Of a stretch of DNA of 23,124 nt, positions 2 through 14,866 are shown in pieces (the stretch's first letter is position 1; each line of letters opens with the position of its first letter). Position numbers and translations under genes: made by a program. The notes beneath the pieces were generated by a model. The model ran no database searches, was not told the DNA's origin, and was given only the letters and a program-made list of their open reading frames with translations. The DNA comes from a virus: the IMG/VR virus record IMGVR_UViG_3300012920_000282, positions 1 through 23,124 of that record. The stretch is one strand, 5' to 3'.

Positions 2-979
2 AGAGGCATTGAGGATATTGACCAAATGCGGAGGACTGCTTTGACAGGTCTTTCAGGTCAACCCAATCTTCCTGATTACGAAGGCGGTTTGCTCGGAGAG
101 GTAGAAAGGCAGTCTCAATTTAGGCCGTTTACCGTTACAAGCACCAACGTGTTTGGTCAGCCCTCTGCTGCAACGATCTCCAGAGAAGGAACGGAGCTTG
201 CTCTAAGTCCACAAGAAGCAGATATACAACGCGCTTTAACAGGGTTTGGGCAAGGAGCATTTGACTTCTTAAATGATCCTGCTGCAAGAGAGCAGGAACA
301 GAGTGCATTGATCGGTATGCTTACTCAAGATCCAGGTCAAAGGGCAGGAAGGGAAGCAGATATTTTTGCCAGACTTGAGGCCGCACAAGAACCCGCAAGA
401 GAACGAGCTAGATTACAGCTTGAGGAACGACTGTTGGGTCAAGGTCGAACTGGTGTCAGAACAGCCGCTTACGGCGGTACGCCAGAGCAACTTGCACTAA
501 ATCAGGCCATTGAAGAGCAGAGAGCCAGATCAGCCGTATCTGCTATGGAACAAGCCAGAGCAGAGCAAGCCTTGCAATCTAATCAAACTTTGCAGGGTCT
601 ACGAGAGTTTAGGGGCCGCATGGGTCTACTCGGTCAACTTGGACTGTCGGCCATCCCAACAGCTTATGTGCCTCAACAAGAAACCCTGCGAACGCTAACA
701 CCACAATTACAGGCAACTAGACTTGCAACAGATCTTGAGCGAACTGGTTTGGGTCTGGGTGCTGCGCTTGCAGAAGCAGGACTGGAGGCAGAACTTGGAT
801 TTGCAGGTTTGCAAAATGCTCTGCGACAGCAGCAATATCAAGGATTGTTTGATTTGTTGCGCGGTGAACGCGCTGCTCAGGCCCAAGAAGCCGCAGCTTC
901 AGGTGGTGGAATGTCTGGCAATCTGATTACGAACCTTTTTGGAATGCTTGATGAAGCAGGAATACCAAGGATTAGATAA
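2..979 (+). CDS. Putative internal virion protein, 5' end cut by window edge
   Basis: The reading frame is open from base 2 to the stop at 977-979, so the ATG at 26 may be internal and the gene probably begins upstream. The visible protein is rich in Ala, Gln, Glu, Arg and Leu. Long helical stretches lie in about residues 80-200 and 235-290 (numbered from ATG 26), and a Gly-rich turn comes just before the C terminus. No enzymatic motif is seen. It is followed with a one-base TAATG overlap by two more long structural-type genes. That composition and position resemble the internal or ejected virion proteins of short-tailed phages. The role is inferred from context, not from a recognised domain. 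Confidence 0.6.
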   Translation, partial: RGIEDIDQMRRTALTGLSGQPNLPDYEGGLLGEVERQSQFRPFTVTSTNVFGQPSAATISREGTELALSPQEADIQRALTGFGQGAFDFLNDPAAREQEQSALIGMLTQDPGQRAGREADIFARLEAAQEPARERARLQLEERLLGQGRTGVRTAAYGGTPEQLALNQAIEEQRARSAVSAMEQARAEQALQSNQTLQGLREFRGRMGLLGQLGLSAIPTAYVPQQETLRTLTPQLQATRLATDLERTGLGLGAALAEAGLEAELGFAGLQNALRQQQYQGLFDLLRGERAAQAQEAAASGGGMSGNLITNLFGMLDEAGIPRIR

Positions 980-2322
980 TGGCTATAAACATACCATCTC
1001 TTTTTAGTGACATTATTGGTACAGATGAGCAAAGACGATTGCAGATGCTGCAAGAAGGCGATCTGTTAGCGCGTCAGCTTACAGGAAACCTTAGAACAGG
1101 TGCTGGAGCTAGTCTTGGTCAAAGATTAACAGCGACGGCAGCACCAACAGTCACGGCTATCGCAGGTCAACTACCACAACGCAGAGAGGATATAAGGCGG
1201 GCAGCAGGAGGTATGCTTGGCCTAGATGTCAGAACAGAGGGAGAGAAGGTTGCCGATGTCTTAGGTGAAGGATTTAATACGGATCCATCAGGTTTAAGAG
1301 ACTTATCAAAACGATTGTTAAATGTAGCACCAGTTCAAGCGGCGGGATTGATGCAGCTTGCTGATGAAAAAGATGCGGAGTTGGCTCAATTACAAAGGCA
1401 AGAACAATTAGATAATTTGCAAATACGGCAACTTGAGGGCGCATTAGACAGGGCAGATGCGGAGTCAAAGGCTCAACAGAGCTATAGAGATTATGTTGCA
1501 GAATTAGTGAAAGAAACAAGATTTGACGGTTTTTCTGAAGGAATAAGAGATGGCTCTGTTCCGCAGGATAGGTTACAAAAAATAGTAGATCAGATTACAG
1601 AAAAGATTGATCCAACCTCATTAGATGTTGTCGCTGCGGTGGTCAGTGGAGAACAAAAAGTTTTACATTCTGATGGTTTTGGAAACTACTTTACTCTAAA
1701 TGGAGAGAAAATATCGCTCGGAGAGGAGGATAGGGTCGCGCCTATTTCTGCAACGGGGACTTTTCAGGAAGTTGCAGGCTTGACTGAAACGCAAAATCAA
1801 AAATTAAAAGATATGCAAGTTGGCGTGGCCAATTTCATAGCAACGTCAAATAACACCATAAGCCAGTTAGAGCAAAACGAAAATCTAAATACAAGTGTAG
1901 CTGGAATAGCTAGAGTTACTGCTGATGTGGCGCAAAACGCTAAGGCTTTTGCTAGAACTATCGGATTAGAGGCTTCAGATAACATCTTTGATTTAGAAAC
2001 GTATAGCGAAGATTTTGATAGCTTAAATATAGAAAGCTCCGAATTGAAATCGTCAATACTAGGTTTAGCTCTTCAATATGCAGCAGCATCCGGTCTTGGA
2101 ACTGGTAGGGCGTTGACAGACAATGATATTAAACGCGCAATTCAGTCATTAGGATTTGATAGGGCTGATCCAGACGCAATCATATCTGTTCTAAGAGACA
2201 GACAGCAGGAGTTGATAGATAGATTTAAGACTGTTTATGAGGTTAATTATCAACAACCTTTTGCAGGAAACTTTGGCCTGGATATGGATAGGCCCGTATC
2301 TGAATTAATTAATGAAGGTTAA
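979..2322 (+). CDS. Putative internal virion / ejection protein (447 aa)
   Basis: The ATG at 979 overlaps the stop of the preceding gene by one base (TAATG), indicating translational coupling. The protein is mostly predicted helix. Residues about 120-165 form a charged, Gln- and Glu-rich coiled-coil-like segment, and a second helical block spans about 265-430. The C-terminal part contains a pattern common in phage internal proteins (GRALTDNDIKRAIQSLGF). No signal peptide or catalytic motif is visible. It sits between two other long structural-type genes in the late strand. I infer an internal virion protein; the exact family is not recognised. Confidence 0.6.
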   Translation: MAINIPSLFSDIIGTDEQRRLQMLQEGDLLARQLTGNLRTGAGASLGQRLTATAAPTVTAIAGQLPQRREDIRRAAGGMLGLDVRTEGEKVADVLGEGFNTDPSGLRDLSKRLLNVAPVQAAGLMQLADEKDAELAQLQRQEQLDNLQIRQLEGALDRADAESKAQQSYRDYVAELVKETRFDGFSEGIRDGSVPQDRLQKIVDQITEKIDPTSLDVVAAVVSGEQKVLHSDGFGNYFTLNGEKISLGEEDRVAPISATGTFQEVAGLTETQNQKLKDMQVGVANFIATSNNTISQLEQNENLNTSVAGIARVTADVAQNAKAFARTIGLEASDNIFDLETYSEDFDSLNIESSELKSSILGLALQYAAASGLGTGRALTDNDIKRAIQSLGFDRADPDAIISVLRDRQQELIDRFKTVYEVNYQQPFAGNFGLDMDRPVSELINEG

Positions 2323-2324
2323 AT

Positions 2325-4307
2325 ATGGCAGCCACATTAAGGGAACTTAAAAGACTTCACGATGCAATACAGTCGGGCGAAGTTACTGTTGACCAAATCA
2401 AAGCAGACATAAGGCCAGATTATGATGAATATGTTGCTAACTTGGCTGCCCGACCCCCTGCGCCTCAACAATCTAACGTAGAGAATATGAGTGCCTTCCA
2501 GTTAATGAGCGAAGGAGTAAAAGGCGTAGGAGAGGCGGCTCTTAGTATGGCTACGGCGATTCCTGCTCAAATAGCGGGCGGGTACGCTGGTATGTATAAG
2601 GCAGCGACAACTGATGCTGACTTTATAAGCAAAGAGGTTGTTGACACAATGCAAGACGTTTCAGGAAACCTCACTTATCAACCTAGGTCATTTGCAGGTC
2701 AGCAAATTATGAGAGGCATTGGGATGGCAGTGGAGCCTCTTGAGCAAATCGCTGAAAGTGCTGGGACAACAGTAACAAGAGTCACTGGGTCGCCTACGTT
2801 AGGTGGAGGGGTGCAAACCCTTTTAGAGCTTGGGCCAATCGGATTTGGATCAAAAAGTCCGATTAAACCATTAAAGAACAGAGCGGCGGGAACAGTAGAG
2901 GCAAGAAGGCGTTTAGATAACGCTGGGATTGATCCTAGACTGCCAATAGAGCAGCAATTAAATCAAGTGCCAGAGGCGGCTGTTGCGTTAGCTGGAGAGA
3001 CAACGCAAAGAGCGCAAGGTCTTTTGGCTGTCCAACAGGCCACACAGAGAGCTAAGCAAGCTCAAAAAAACATGATCTCAGAATTTTACAGGGAGGCTAG
3101 AGAGTCCGGTACTGCTTTAGTTCCAATAAATGAAGTCAGAATCCTCAACGAAACCATGGGTGCTACCCTCGCAGAGGGATTCGCTGACGCGAATATCCCC
3201 GCAGTCAGAAATATGCTTGATAACTTTGTAAGAATTATAGAGCCATCCAAGCCGTCTTTTAGAGGAGTAAATGTTTCACGCAGGGGCTTAGGAAGTATAA
3301 GGATTGAGTCTAGGATGCAAACAGCGGTTATGCCTAGAGAGCAATTACAAAAGAGTGTAGTGGAGCTAAATGATATTGCTCGTTTAAGAAGAGAGGCTAG
3401 TCGCCTTGCTAGGGTCAATAACGCTGAGGTGGCGGGTGCTGCAACAGCAATAAAGGGGAATATAGACAACTGGATGAACGCTCAGTTTGATAGAGATATG
3501 ATCTCTGGCGTTCCAGATGCCATTGATAAATGGAGAAACGCCAACACGGCATATAGAGAGTATTCAAATATTTTTAATGAAAATCAATACATGAAAAACA
3601 TCATTGAAAATGAAGCAACCCCAGAAATGGTTGCAGATTGGATACATGGAGCAAATGCTGTAGGAGCAAAGTCTGAGTCTGCTTTAGTTGTAAATCGCCT
3701 CAATAAGGTTCTAGGCAAAGACAGCCCAGAAATGCAAACGGTAAGGAACAGCGTTGCTTTTGATATTGTCTACCCTATTTTGAGAAAAAACCTAGATCAA
3801 GACTCGATTACTTCATTTCAAACCAACTATGTTGATTTTGTCAAAAAAAACCCTTCCTTATCAGAGGCACTGTTTGATCCAAAACAATTAGAGAATTTTG
3901 ACACATTATCAAAGATAGTTAGATCTGCTCAAAAACTTGATAACAAGCAAGGAATAGTCCCAAATGTTGACAGAGCGTTAGCCATTGCTTTGTTTCCCAA
4001 AGCGCAGGGACTTGCTACGGGGTCTACTGTACTTGGTGCAGCAACAAATGCAGTATCTAGGCTAAGACGGATTGGCGAACCTTCTGCTAAGAAGAAAGTA
4101 TATTCAGATCTGACAGGAATAGACATGACGCAACCATTAGTGAGAGCTAAGGATGTAAGAACCGCAGCATATATCGAGTCTGCGATTAATCAGGGTGACT
4201 ACTGGGATGATATCCAGCTAATGTTAACGGAGACAATGGATATTGCTAGACAACAAATAAATGAGCGTAGTGCAAGAAATAGGGCCAGAGAAGTAAGAGA
4301 CCGTTAA
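2325..4307 (+). CDS. Putative internal virion protein, large (660 aa)
   Basis: The gene starts two bases after the preceding stop, with a weak GAAGG-type ribosome site. Residues about 60-95 are a small-residue hydrophobic stretch (GEAALSMATAIPAQIAGGYA), and a Gly-rich turn follows near 150-175. The remainder is a long charged helical region. Such a protein with one amphipathic or membrane-seeking segment fits internal core proteins that phages eject into the cell envelope. There is no lytic transglycosylase motif that I can see. It is the last late gene before the convergent minus-strand operon, and its stop overlaps the stop of that operon. Confidence 0.6.
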   Translation: MAATLRELKRLHDAIQSGEVTVDQIKADIRPDYDEYVANLAARPPAPQQSNVENMSAFQLMSEGVKGVGEAALSMATAIPAQIAGGYAGMYKAATTDADFISKEVVDTMQDVSGNLTYQPRSFAGQQIMRGIGMAVEPLEQIAESAGTTVTRVTGSPTLGGGVQTLLELGPIGFGSKSPIKPLKNRAAGTVEARRRLDNAGIDPRLPIEQQLNQVPEAAVALAGETTQRAQGLLAVQQATQRAKQAQKNMISEFYREARESGTALVPINEVRILNETMGATLAEGFADANIPAVRNMLDNFVRIIEPSKPSFRGVNVSRRGLGSIRIESRMQTAVMPREQLQKSVVELNDIARLRREASRLARVNNAEVAGAATAIKGNIDNWMNAQFDRDMISGVPDAIDKWRNANTAYREYSNIFNENQYMKNIIENEATPEMVADWIHGANAVGAKSESALVVNRLNKVLGKDSPEMQTVRNSVAFDIVYPILRKNLDQDSITSFQTNYVDFVKKNPSLSEALFDPKQLENFDTLSKIVRSAQKLDNKQGIVPNVDRALAIALFPKAQGLATGSTVLGAATNAVSRLRRIGEPSAKKKVYSDLTGIDMTQPLVRAKDVRTAAYIESAINQGDYWDDIQLMLTETMDIARQQINERSARNRAREVRDR

Positions 4308-12275: not shown

Positions 12276-12998
12276 TCATGCCGCTATCTGGCGGGCCGGT
12301 ATTTGATTGGTGTCTACTATGAATATATGGTCTAACGGGTCTATACCCTGCCCGCGAGCCGGTTTGTATTTGAGGCCGATTATTGCGCCGGCATGTTTCA
12401 GATTCTCAATGTCTGAATTGTCGCCATTGATTACTGGGCGGCCTAAAAAGGTTTCAGGCATTGGGCCGTGAAATACGACCGACATCGGCACATGAGTCTG
12501 CAATGCAATGTCTACCTGCTTTTGATATGCAGGGGCGCGCGAATAGCTAAACATCAGCTCATAATTGGCCGGCGTGTTTCCTAGTCGCTTTGCTATTTTG
12601 GTGTAATCGTAAAAGCGGATGTTAGGAAAGGATTGCGGGATCTCACCGAAAGCAGGTAATTCCCATTGGATGTCTGACAGAACATTTAGTCGGACATATG
12701 GGATTACGCCGGCTTTCTGACAGACCCGCTCAAAATTCGCCAGTTCACGTTTAAGCTGCGCCAGAAATGCTGCGCGATCTGACAGAAAATAGTCGGTTTT
12801 CGCTTGTCTGCCGCTCACAACATTAGACATAGTCCCGCGACCGGCTGAAACCAAGCAGGGCTTAGCGCAACCGGCAGCATGCCGCATCGGGCATAAAGTA
12901 TTATTAGGGTAGAGTGATAGGCCGGCGACCCTGATTGTGATATCGCGATTGTTTTTGGCGAGTTTGGTGTTACCACCCGAAGTATCTAGTAATTTCAT
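12276..12998 (-). CDS. GP88-like (DUF7227-type) cysteine-cluster protein (240 aa)
   Basis: The protein resembles the 'gene product 88' family found in many phages. After an N-terminal LLDTSGGNTKLAKNN segment comes a strand (ITIRVAGLSLYP) and then a Cys cluster, CPMRHAAGCAKPC (about residues 37-49, C-x8-C-x3-C). The remainder looks like an alpha/beta barrel: repeated strand-helix units with VIPYVRLNVLSDIQWE, IRFYDYTKIAKRL, YELMFSYSR and PMSVVFHG. The family function is unknown; the Cys trio could hold a metal or Fe-S cluster, which is my inference. The ribosome site is weak. It is the largest gene of the accessory cassette. Confidence 0.75.
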   Translation of the reverse strand: MKLLDTSGGNTKLAKNNRDITIRVAGLSLYPNNTLCPMRHAAGCAKPCLVSAGRGTMSNVVSGRQAKTDYFLSDRAAFLAQLKRELANFERVCQKAGVIPYVRLNVLSDIQWELPAFGEIPQSFPNIRFYDYTKIAKRLGNTPANYELMFSYSRAPAYQKQVDIALQTHVPMSVVFHGPMPETFLGRPVINGDNSDIENLKHAGAIIGLKYKPARGQGIDPLDHIFIVDTNQIPARQIAA

Positions 12999-13980: not shown

Positions 13981-14009
13981 GGGGCAATCGATAAGGGGCG
14001 GGGGAGGGG
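13981..14009 (+). other. G-quadruplex motif
   Basis: Four G runs (4, 4, 5 and 4 bases) separated by loops of 10, 1 and 1 bases on the plus strand, between the repeat array and the late promoter. The rest of the window has no similar run. Folding of the strand or its transcript is predicted by pattern only. Confidence 0.55.
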
Positions 14010-14046
14010 TACGGCACTGTGTAATAATTATAGTAGCCCCCCAAAC

Positions 14047-14074
14047 TTGCAAGAAACGAAAACCCGACTAGAAT
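14047..14074 (+). promoter_or_regulatory. Sigma70-like promoter for the packaging / head genes
   Basis: TTGCAA (14047-14052) and TAGAAT (14069-14074) are 16 bases apart. Initiation near 14081 would place the structured segment at the very 5' end of the transcript, about 200 bases ahead of the first gene. The match is good at -10 and moderate at -35. Confidence 0.5.
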
Positions 14075-14080
14075 GTGTAT

Positions 14081-14230
14081 TGCGTCTACTGGCTAGAGTC
14101 TTAATCCAACTCTGGTGCAAAGATAGGTAAAATCGTGATGCGAAAGGCATGGAGATTGTCTTGGTGTCCCCGCTTTCGCAGTAGATGCGCTTTGAGCGTA
14201 ATAGTGGTTCGATTCCACGGGTTAATCTAT
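14081..14230 (+). ncRNA. Probable structured RNA with tRNA T-arm-like hairpin
   Basis: Successive helices are visible. CTAGAGT pairs with ACTCTGG around a nine-base loop (about 14092-14114). TGCGAAAG (14139-14146) pairs with CTTTCGCA (14173-14180). TGCGCT pairs with AGCGTA around TTG (14186-14200). GTGG-TTCGATT-CCAC (14204-14218) is a canonical T-arm. The next seven bases, GGGTTAA (14219-14225), can pair with TTAATCC in the loop of the first helix, or as an acceptor-like stem. No cloverleaf, D-arm or anticodon arm fits, so it is not an ordinary tRNA. It lies just after the late promoter and before the terminase gene. Confidence 0.5.
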
Positions 14231-14280
14231 CGGAACCTTGCTTGGTAGCCGCTCCTAATTACTGTATCTGTTGAGTTGTT

Positions 14281-14463
14281 ATGACTGAATTAGAGTTAAA
14301 GATAGCTAACTTGGAGTTGGCTGAAGAGTTGAGAAAGGAAGCTCAAAGGCTTCAGAGGGCGTATGAGCTTGATGAAGATGTATCTTTGGTTGATGTAATG
14401 GTAGCTAGGAGGCGGGCTGAAGTTGCTCGTAATGCGTTGTATGGGCGAACCAGTAAAGATTAA
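14281..14463 (+). CDS. Small helical protein at the start of the packaging operon (60 aa)
   Basis: The whole protein is predicted helix: a Leu/Glu heptad region (about 1-30, ELELKIANLELAEELRKEAQ) then a second amphipathic helix (about 36-54). The ATG has no strong ribosome site. It overlaps the small terminase gene by 23 bases, which favours a real coding sequence. It may be a partner of the small terminase or a regulator; no family is recognised. Confidence 0.6.
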   Translation: MTELELKIANLELAEELRKEAQRLQRAYELDEDVSLVDVMVARRRAEVARNALYGRTSKD

Positions 14464-14866
14464 GAATGGCCGACAGGGTGAAGGTGGTGGCCGCCCTATG
14501 GTTGTTCTTAATGAGGATCAGAAACAGAAGTTAGCTTGGATGGCTCCCTATTTAACTATAGAGATGATGGCTGATTCTCTAGAGATTCCTAGATCGACAT
14601 TTAGTGAAATATTGAAGAGAGATCCTGAAGTAGCTGGAATCTATCACAAGCATAAGAGTGATAAGGTCGCAGAAGTGGCTTCTAGCCTCGTTAACAAGGC
14701 CAGAGACGGCGATACGAGGGCAGCTATGTTCTATCTAAGGACTCAGGGAAGATGGCGTGAAGAGGCTCACAGTGCGTCTGAGAGGCCCCAGATTCAGATC
14801 AATGTTTCGTCTATGCCTCAGATTGAGGAAGTAAAAGGAGATGTAATTGAGCCAGAAGCTGATTAA
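14441..14866 (+). CDS. terS: Putative terminase small subunit
   Basis: The product (141 aa) has a Gly-rich opening, then a helix-turn-helix region (about residues 33-60: LTIEMMADSLEIPRSTFSEIL) typical of small terminases, which recognise the packaging site, and a helical, charged middle with AMFYLRTQGRWRE (about 96-108), a pattern shared by many small terminases. Start choice is uncertain: ATG at 14441 is taken, ATG at 14432 or TTG at 14423 are in frame, and none has a clear ribosome site. Its last bases form the first copy of the repeat that flanks the oxygenase gene. The large subunit lies six genes downstream. Confidence 0.75.
   Translation: MGEPVKIKNGRQGEGGGRPMVVLNEDQKQKLAWMAPYLTIEMMADSLEIPRSTFSEILKRDPEVAGIYHKHKSDKVAEVASSLVNKARDGDTRAAMFYLRTQGRWREEAHSASERPQIQINVSSMPQIEEVKGDVIEPEAD
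14832..14864 (+). repeat. Direct repeat flanking the oxygenase gene, left copy
   Basis: TAAAAGG, five differing bases, then 21 identical bases (14844-14864), matched by the copy at 15449-15481 at the same internal spacing. This copy encodes the last residues of the small terminase. In the lysozyme frame it also reads a seven-codon remnant (MSQKLIN) ending on the oxygenase start codon. Confidence 0.85.

Follow-up and report, generated by a model that had tools for sequence, protein, structure and literature searches.

A conserved structured RNA at the predicted start of a phage late transcript, a candidate optional cis-acting leader

The window, by which we mean the whole stretch of DNA analysed (23,124 nt, from an IMG/VR record), is a fragment (23 kb) of the genome of a tailed phage. 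It contains a 107-nt structured RNA at 14082–14188 that belongs to a family new to Rfam. On balance, we read this RNA as a 5′ leader of the late transcript that is structured, acts in cis and is optional. Directly supported are a promoter-like site, the position of the RNA, its structure in two sequences, its conservation and its patchy presence: among nine relatives gathered via their small terminase (L002–L010), one (L004, contig IMGVR_UViG_3300030107_005038) has the RNA, at the same place and with the same promoter. Few descriptions exist of RNA elements that act from the very start of a late phage transcript.

Early genes of the phage (recombination and Nin-type genes, minus strand) diverge from the late genes on the plus strand, which encode the small terminase (14423), large terminase (16594), portal (17840), a scaffold-like protein (20311) and capsid (21110), and the stretch of interest sits at the junction of the two sets (~13.8–14.3 kb). 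Elsewhere in the window, three plus-strand ORFs of 317, 447 and 660 aa (26–4307) had no PHROG or Pfam match, and the 60-aa ORF that follows the RNA gave a weak match to FliE, below the Pfam cut-off. Taken alone, the 9/12 consensus match of the promoter-like site is no better than chance expectation. Its support comes from the relatives, with TTGCAA and TACAAT hexamers recurring at the same place in L002, L003, L004, L006, L007, L008 and L009, and with the 16-base hexamer spacing also read directly in the L004 promoter. From the promoter match, +1 is predicted at ~14081–14082, the start of helix P1, and in both the window and L004 pairing in the RNA begins 8–9 nt past the −10 hexamer, approximately where transcription is expected to start. 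An earlier note on this DNA had proposed an unassigned structured RNA just after a promoter and before the packaging genes, and the promoter-like site, the negative Rfam search and the support for the core fold described below all agree with that proposal.

The elements of the RNA are listed in Table 1. A structured RNA is indeed present within the extent given by the earlier note, 14081–14230, but the conserved unit is 14082–14188 and is closed by a 10-bp helix (P1) that the note does not mention. P1 would join both ends of the RNA, and P2 and P3 would present a conserved single-stranded core that probably binds a conserved partner; a bound partner is also suggested by the near-invariance of TGCAAAnATAGGTAAAATnGT and of CCCGCTTTnG. 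The P2 and P3 loops are complementary over 4–5 bp (UCCA/UGGA, with UUCCA/UGGAA as the L004 counterpart), and a leader pseudoknotted through this loop-loop pairing is possible and compatible with both sequences; the complementarity is invariant in the two, and covariation neither supports nor opposes it. A tentative P4 (14118–14122/14174–14178) pairs perfectly in L004 but contains a single A-C mismatch in the sequence of the window. From the 3′ end of P1 to the next ATG there are 92 nt in the window and ~22 nt in L004. No long ORF spans the element, and the alignment of the two sequences places a 1-nt deletion in the loop of P3.

Table 1. Features at the early/late junction of the window and the basis for each.
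Feature	Coordinates	Strand	Basis or remark
Promoter-like site, TTGCAA-N16-TAGAAT	14047–14074	+	Consensus scan, 9/12 match
Conserved structured RNA core, 107 nt	14082–14188	+	Fold z, L004 homology, kept pairs
P1, 5′ strand; 10 bp with 14179–14188 (12 bp in L004)	14082–14091	+	Compensating changes versus L004
P2 hairpin, 14093–14099/14109–14115; 7 bp, 9-nt loop	14093–14115	+	7 pairs kept, one changed
UCCA of the P2 loop, may form a kissing pair with UGGA 14150–14153 (P3 loop)	14105–14108	+	Sequence
Nearly invariant single-stranded core TGCAAAnATAGGTAAAATnGT	14116–14136	+	Window/L004 alignment
P3 hairpin, 14137–14141/14164–14168 and 14144–14149/14157–14162; 11 bp	14137–14168	+	Pair-keeping changes
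Nearly invariant strand CCCGCTTTnG linking P3 to P1	14169–14178	+	Window/L004 alignment
P1, 3′ strand	14179–14188	+	Pairs with 14082–14091; L004 BLAST similarity stops here, at 14186
T-arm-like hairpin GTGG-TTCGATT-CCAC	14204–14218	+	Read directly; window-specific, outside P1
60-aa ORF	14281–14463	+	First reading frame past the RNA; in L003, not L004
Small terminase subunit	14423–14866	+	phrog_309, E 7e-10

Folded alone, 14082–14188 gave a z of −2.57 and its L004 homologue −2.29, compared with −1.1 for the whole 181-nt stretch 14060–14240, which is not unusually stable. A 10-bp helix such as P1 arose in 3% of shuffles of the 150-nt stretch. The best BLAST segment shared by the window and L004 (14029–14186) ends inside P1, and the part of the RNA that was matched is 84% identical. 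All 28 pairs of P1–P3 are kept between the two sequences with none broken, and seven of them vary, two by double compensatory and five by single pair-keeping changes, so that the covariation check proposed in the earlier note came out positive for the core, if in two sequences. In P1 these are a double change from C-G to U-A (14083/14187) and single changes from G-U to A-U (14084/14186) and C-G to U-G (14089/14181); P2 has one A-U to G-U; and P3 has a double A-U to U-A (14144/14162) and singles from G-U to G-C and from C-G to U-G. When the substitutions were re-dealt to random columns, a mean of 6.0 pairs were broken and none in 0.01% of trials. In a slid-strand control, which scored 37 pairs with P4 and the loop-loop pairs included, 36–44% of cells could pair versus 98.6% for the proposed structure. 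With two sequences, the double changes do not reach significance by themselves (P 0.07; reached in 129 of 500 shuffles). The structure was derived in part from the two-sequence consensus, which biases the test in its favour, a concern that is lessened because P1 and P3 also appear in the minimum-energy fold of L004 on its own.

The RNA is not a constant part of this late region. Seven relatives (L002, L003 and L005–L009) have the promoter region without the insert, while the upstream sequence of L010 is too short to score. The available records of the relatives, several of them fragmentary, showed no copy at any other place. The small terminases of L004 and L009 are 97% identical, and those of the window and L003 92%, but the RNA is in L004 and not L009, and that of the window has no counterpart in L003; L002, whose large terminase is 99% identical to that of the window, also lacks it. 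Since such near-identical pairs differ in the RNA, it has most likely been gained or lost as a cassette. The comparisons with L002 and L003 speak against a packaging RNA, one of the possibilities raised in the earlier note. Like the phi29 pRNA (PMC5340915), the RNA has a three-way junction and paired ends, and its loops, with 4–5 bp of complementarity, may be able to pair with each other, conceivably also between molecules; its size, end helix and place beside the packaging genes would fit such a role. Against it, the phage encodes a small and a large terminase of the ordinary kind, and the RNA has no match to the pRNA family in Rfam. Relatives whose terminase subunits are 92–99% identical, some of them represented by fragments, do without the RNA at this site, which makes an obligatory packaging RNA unlikely. 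We rate this the least probable of the readings considered.

A G-rich/C-rich motif upstream of the small terminase gene, GGGGGAGGGG-N~24-TATAGTA(G/C)CC(C/A)CCC (13999–14042), is a candidate cos site, and is kept in ~14 relatives, of which the most distant has 72% large-terminase identity. A repeated sequence, GCACAAAATAGGTnAAAAT, that resembles the core in distant relatives was rejected as a homologue, as it adjoins this candidate cos motif on the 3′ side and fails to align with the core. With the conserved motif lying just upstream, the conserved stretch could be a DNA element, for instance terminase-binding (cosB-like) sites downstream of cos. This we consider improbable, given that relatives sharing the motif lack the insert and that the changes preserve RNA pairs: five of the seven varying pairs change by way of G-U, which favours an RNA over a DNA element.

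A cis-acting leader is the simplest reading of an RNA that starts at the predicted +1, has no terminator and precedes the late genes. In the seven insert-free relatives, only 6–7 nt separate the −10 hexamer from the ATG that opens the first late gene, and late messages are accordingly predicted to be almost leaderless; it is thus the insert that would create a leader. The main rival, which we think rather unlikely, is a moron-like cassette, an independent gene for a small RNA that would be transcribed from the late promoter, cut from the transcript and have its effect in trans, on the host or the phage. The patchy presence and variable site of the RNA are in line with this, as are the pairing of both ends in P1, typical for stable RNAs, and the end of the L004 similarity where P1 ends. 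On the other hand, neither a terminator-like site 3′ of the RNA nor a separate promoter was found, and the conserved part is a helix-enclosed core and not an exposed seed. Neither did we see an expression platform of a riboswitch or attenuator in the form of a terminator or of a helix over the ribosome-binding site: a terminator-like site is lacking, and P1 stops 92 nt short of the ATG in the window and ~22 nt short of it in L004. Platforms of other kinds are conceivable.

For the cis-acting leader, transcription would start at or within 1–2 bases of the P1 5′ strand, and the 14082–14188 RNA would be the first product of RNA polymerase on the late (packaging) operon, most likely acting in cis on its own transcript. 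The put antiterminator binds to the zinc-binding domain of β′ and counteracts pausing as well as termination. As a phage leader RNA that works on polymerase, HK022 putRNA provides a precedent, with putL lying just downstream of its promoter and acting in cis on RNA polymerase (PMC9378689). Both are structured RNAs in a phage transcript near a promoter, the one described here starting at the predicted +1 of a predicted transcript. However, HK022 put is ~70 nt long, consists of two stem-loops and is found in early operons, whereas the RNA of the window is 107 nt long, has an enclosing P1 and lies before late genes, and no sequence relation between them has been shown. We therefore liken the RNA to putRNA and do not class it as one, since the two-stem-loop, ~70-nt build is lacking. 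Within the leader reading, the mechanism that we rate highest, and advance tentatively, is a modification of RNA polymerase (anti-pausing or antitermination) in the manner of putRNA; it would rank above protection of the 5′ end or translational control of the packaging message. RNA-only antiterminators are few, to our knowledge. More speculative, and unlikely in our estimate, is a new family of late-promoter leader RNAs that would modify RNA polymerase as an RNA-only replacement for, or supplement to, a Q-like antiterminator, carried as a cassette between cos and the terminase genes. The natural presence/absence pairs (window or L004 versus L003 or L009) provide a ready test of a leader effect.

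Searches for relatives of the RNA returned little beyond L004. A covariance model (R1) of the RNA detected the window and L004 alone among 90 loci, and nothing in 185 genomes of one bacterial class, which may not be that of the host; BLAST against 369 genomes of that class, with the same proviso, also gave none. Against phages and plasmids, BLAST of the core or the 3′ part yielded only chance short matches, and four DNA patterns of the core, run on viral contigs, found only L004/L012 and chance matches. In bacterial genomes a core pattern had 119 AT-rich chance matches, none with the remaining RNA. Rfam assigned no family at gathering or relaxed thresholds, its best match being tRNA-Sec at 14.1 bits (E=10; gathering score 47), and hence the comparison with known families suggested in the earlier note revealed no tRNA, tmRNA or phage RNA.

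The T-arm-like hairpin on which that note had based a kinship with tRNA or tmRNA does exist, and is unusual by chance (~0.02 T-arms with a strict 4-bp stem would be expected per window, both strands counted), yet it is one of many motifs that could be selected after the fact. It lies outside P1, in ~90 nt of window-specific sequence before the ATG at 14281 (14192–14280), is missing from L004, the sole homologue, and adds no excess stability (z +0.29 for 14192–14233). The seven-base pairing described beside it (TTAATCC 14101–14107 with GGGTTAA 14219–14225) can likewise be drawn, with one G-U, but it uses the P2 loop and is unremarkable because 84% of shuffles of the 150-nt stretch contain one or more 7-bp helices with no more than a single G-U. 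The note's statement that no cloverleaf fits is upheld by ARAGORN, which found no tRNA or tmRNA. The likeness to these RNAs thus comes down to a single T-arm-like hairpin outside the conserved part, without cloverleaf, D-arm, CCA or a fitting acceptor stem, the proposed acceptor pairing being the one that takes the P2 loop. A degenerate tRNA or tmRNA, or a tRNA 3′ end carried as an attachment site, for which the rarity of the hairpin would argue, is scarcely more credible than a packaging RNA and slightly less so than a DNA element: no integrase was among the proteins scanned, and 14190–14280 had no match in phages or, a weaker point as the class may not be that of the host, in 369 genomes of one bacterial class. 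L011, a different phage contig picked up by its T-arm, was rejected as a homologue since it contains a different RNA, an unannotated tRNA-Leu-like sequence (12290–12470, minus strand) with a second internal T-arm (TAGTGGTTCGATTCCACG). Both ARAGORN and Rfam missed this sequence, and short parts of it match phages of Gram-positive hosts.
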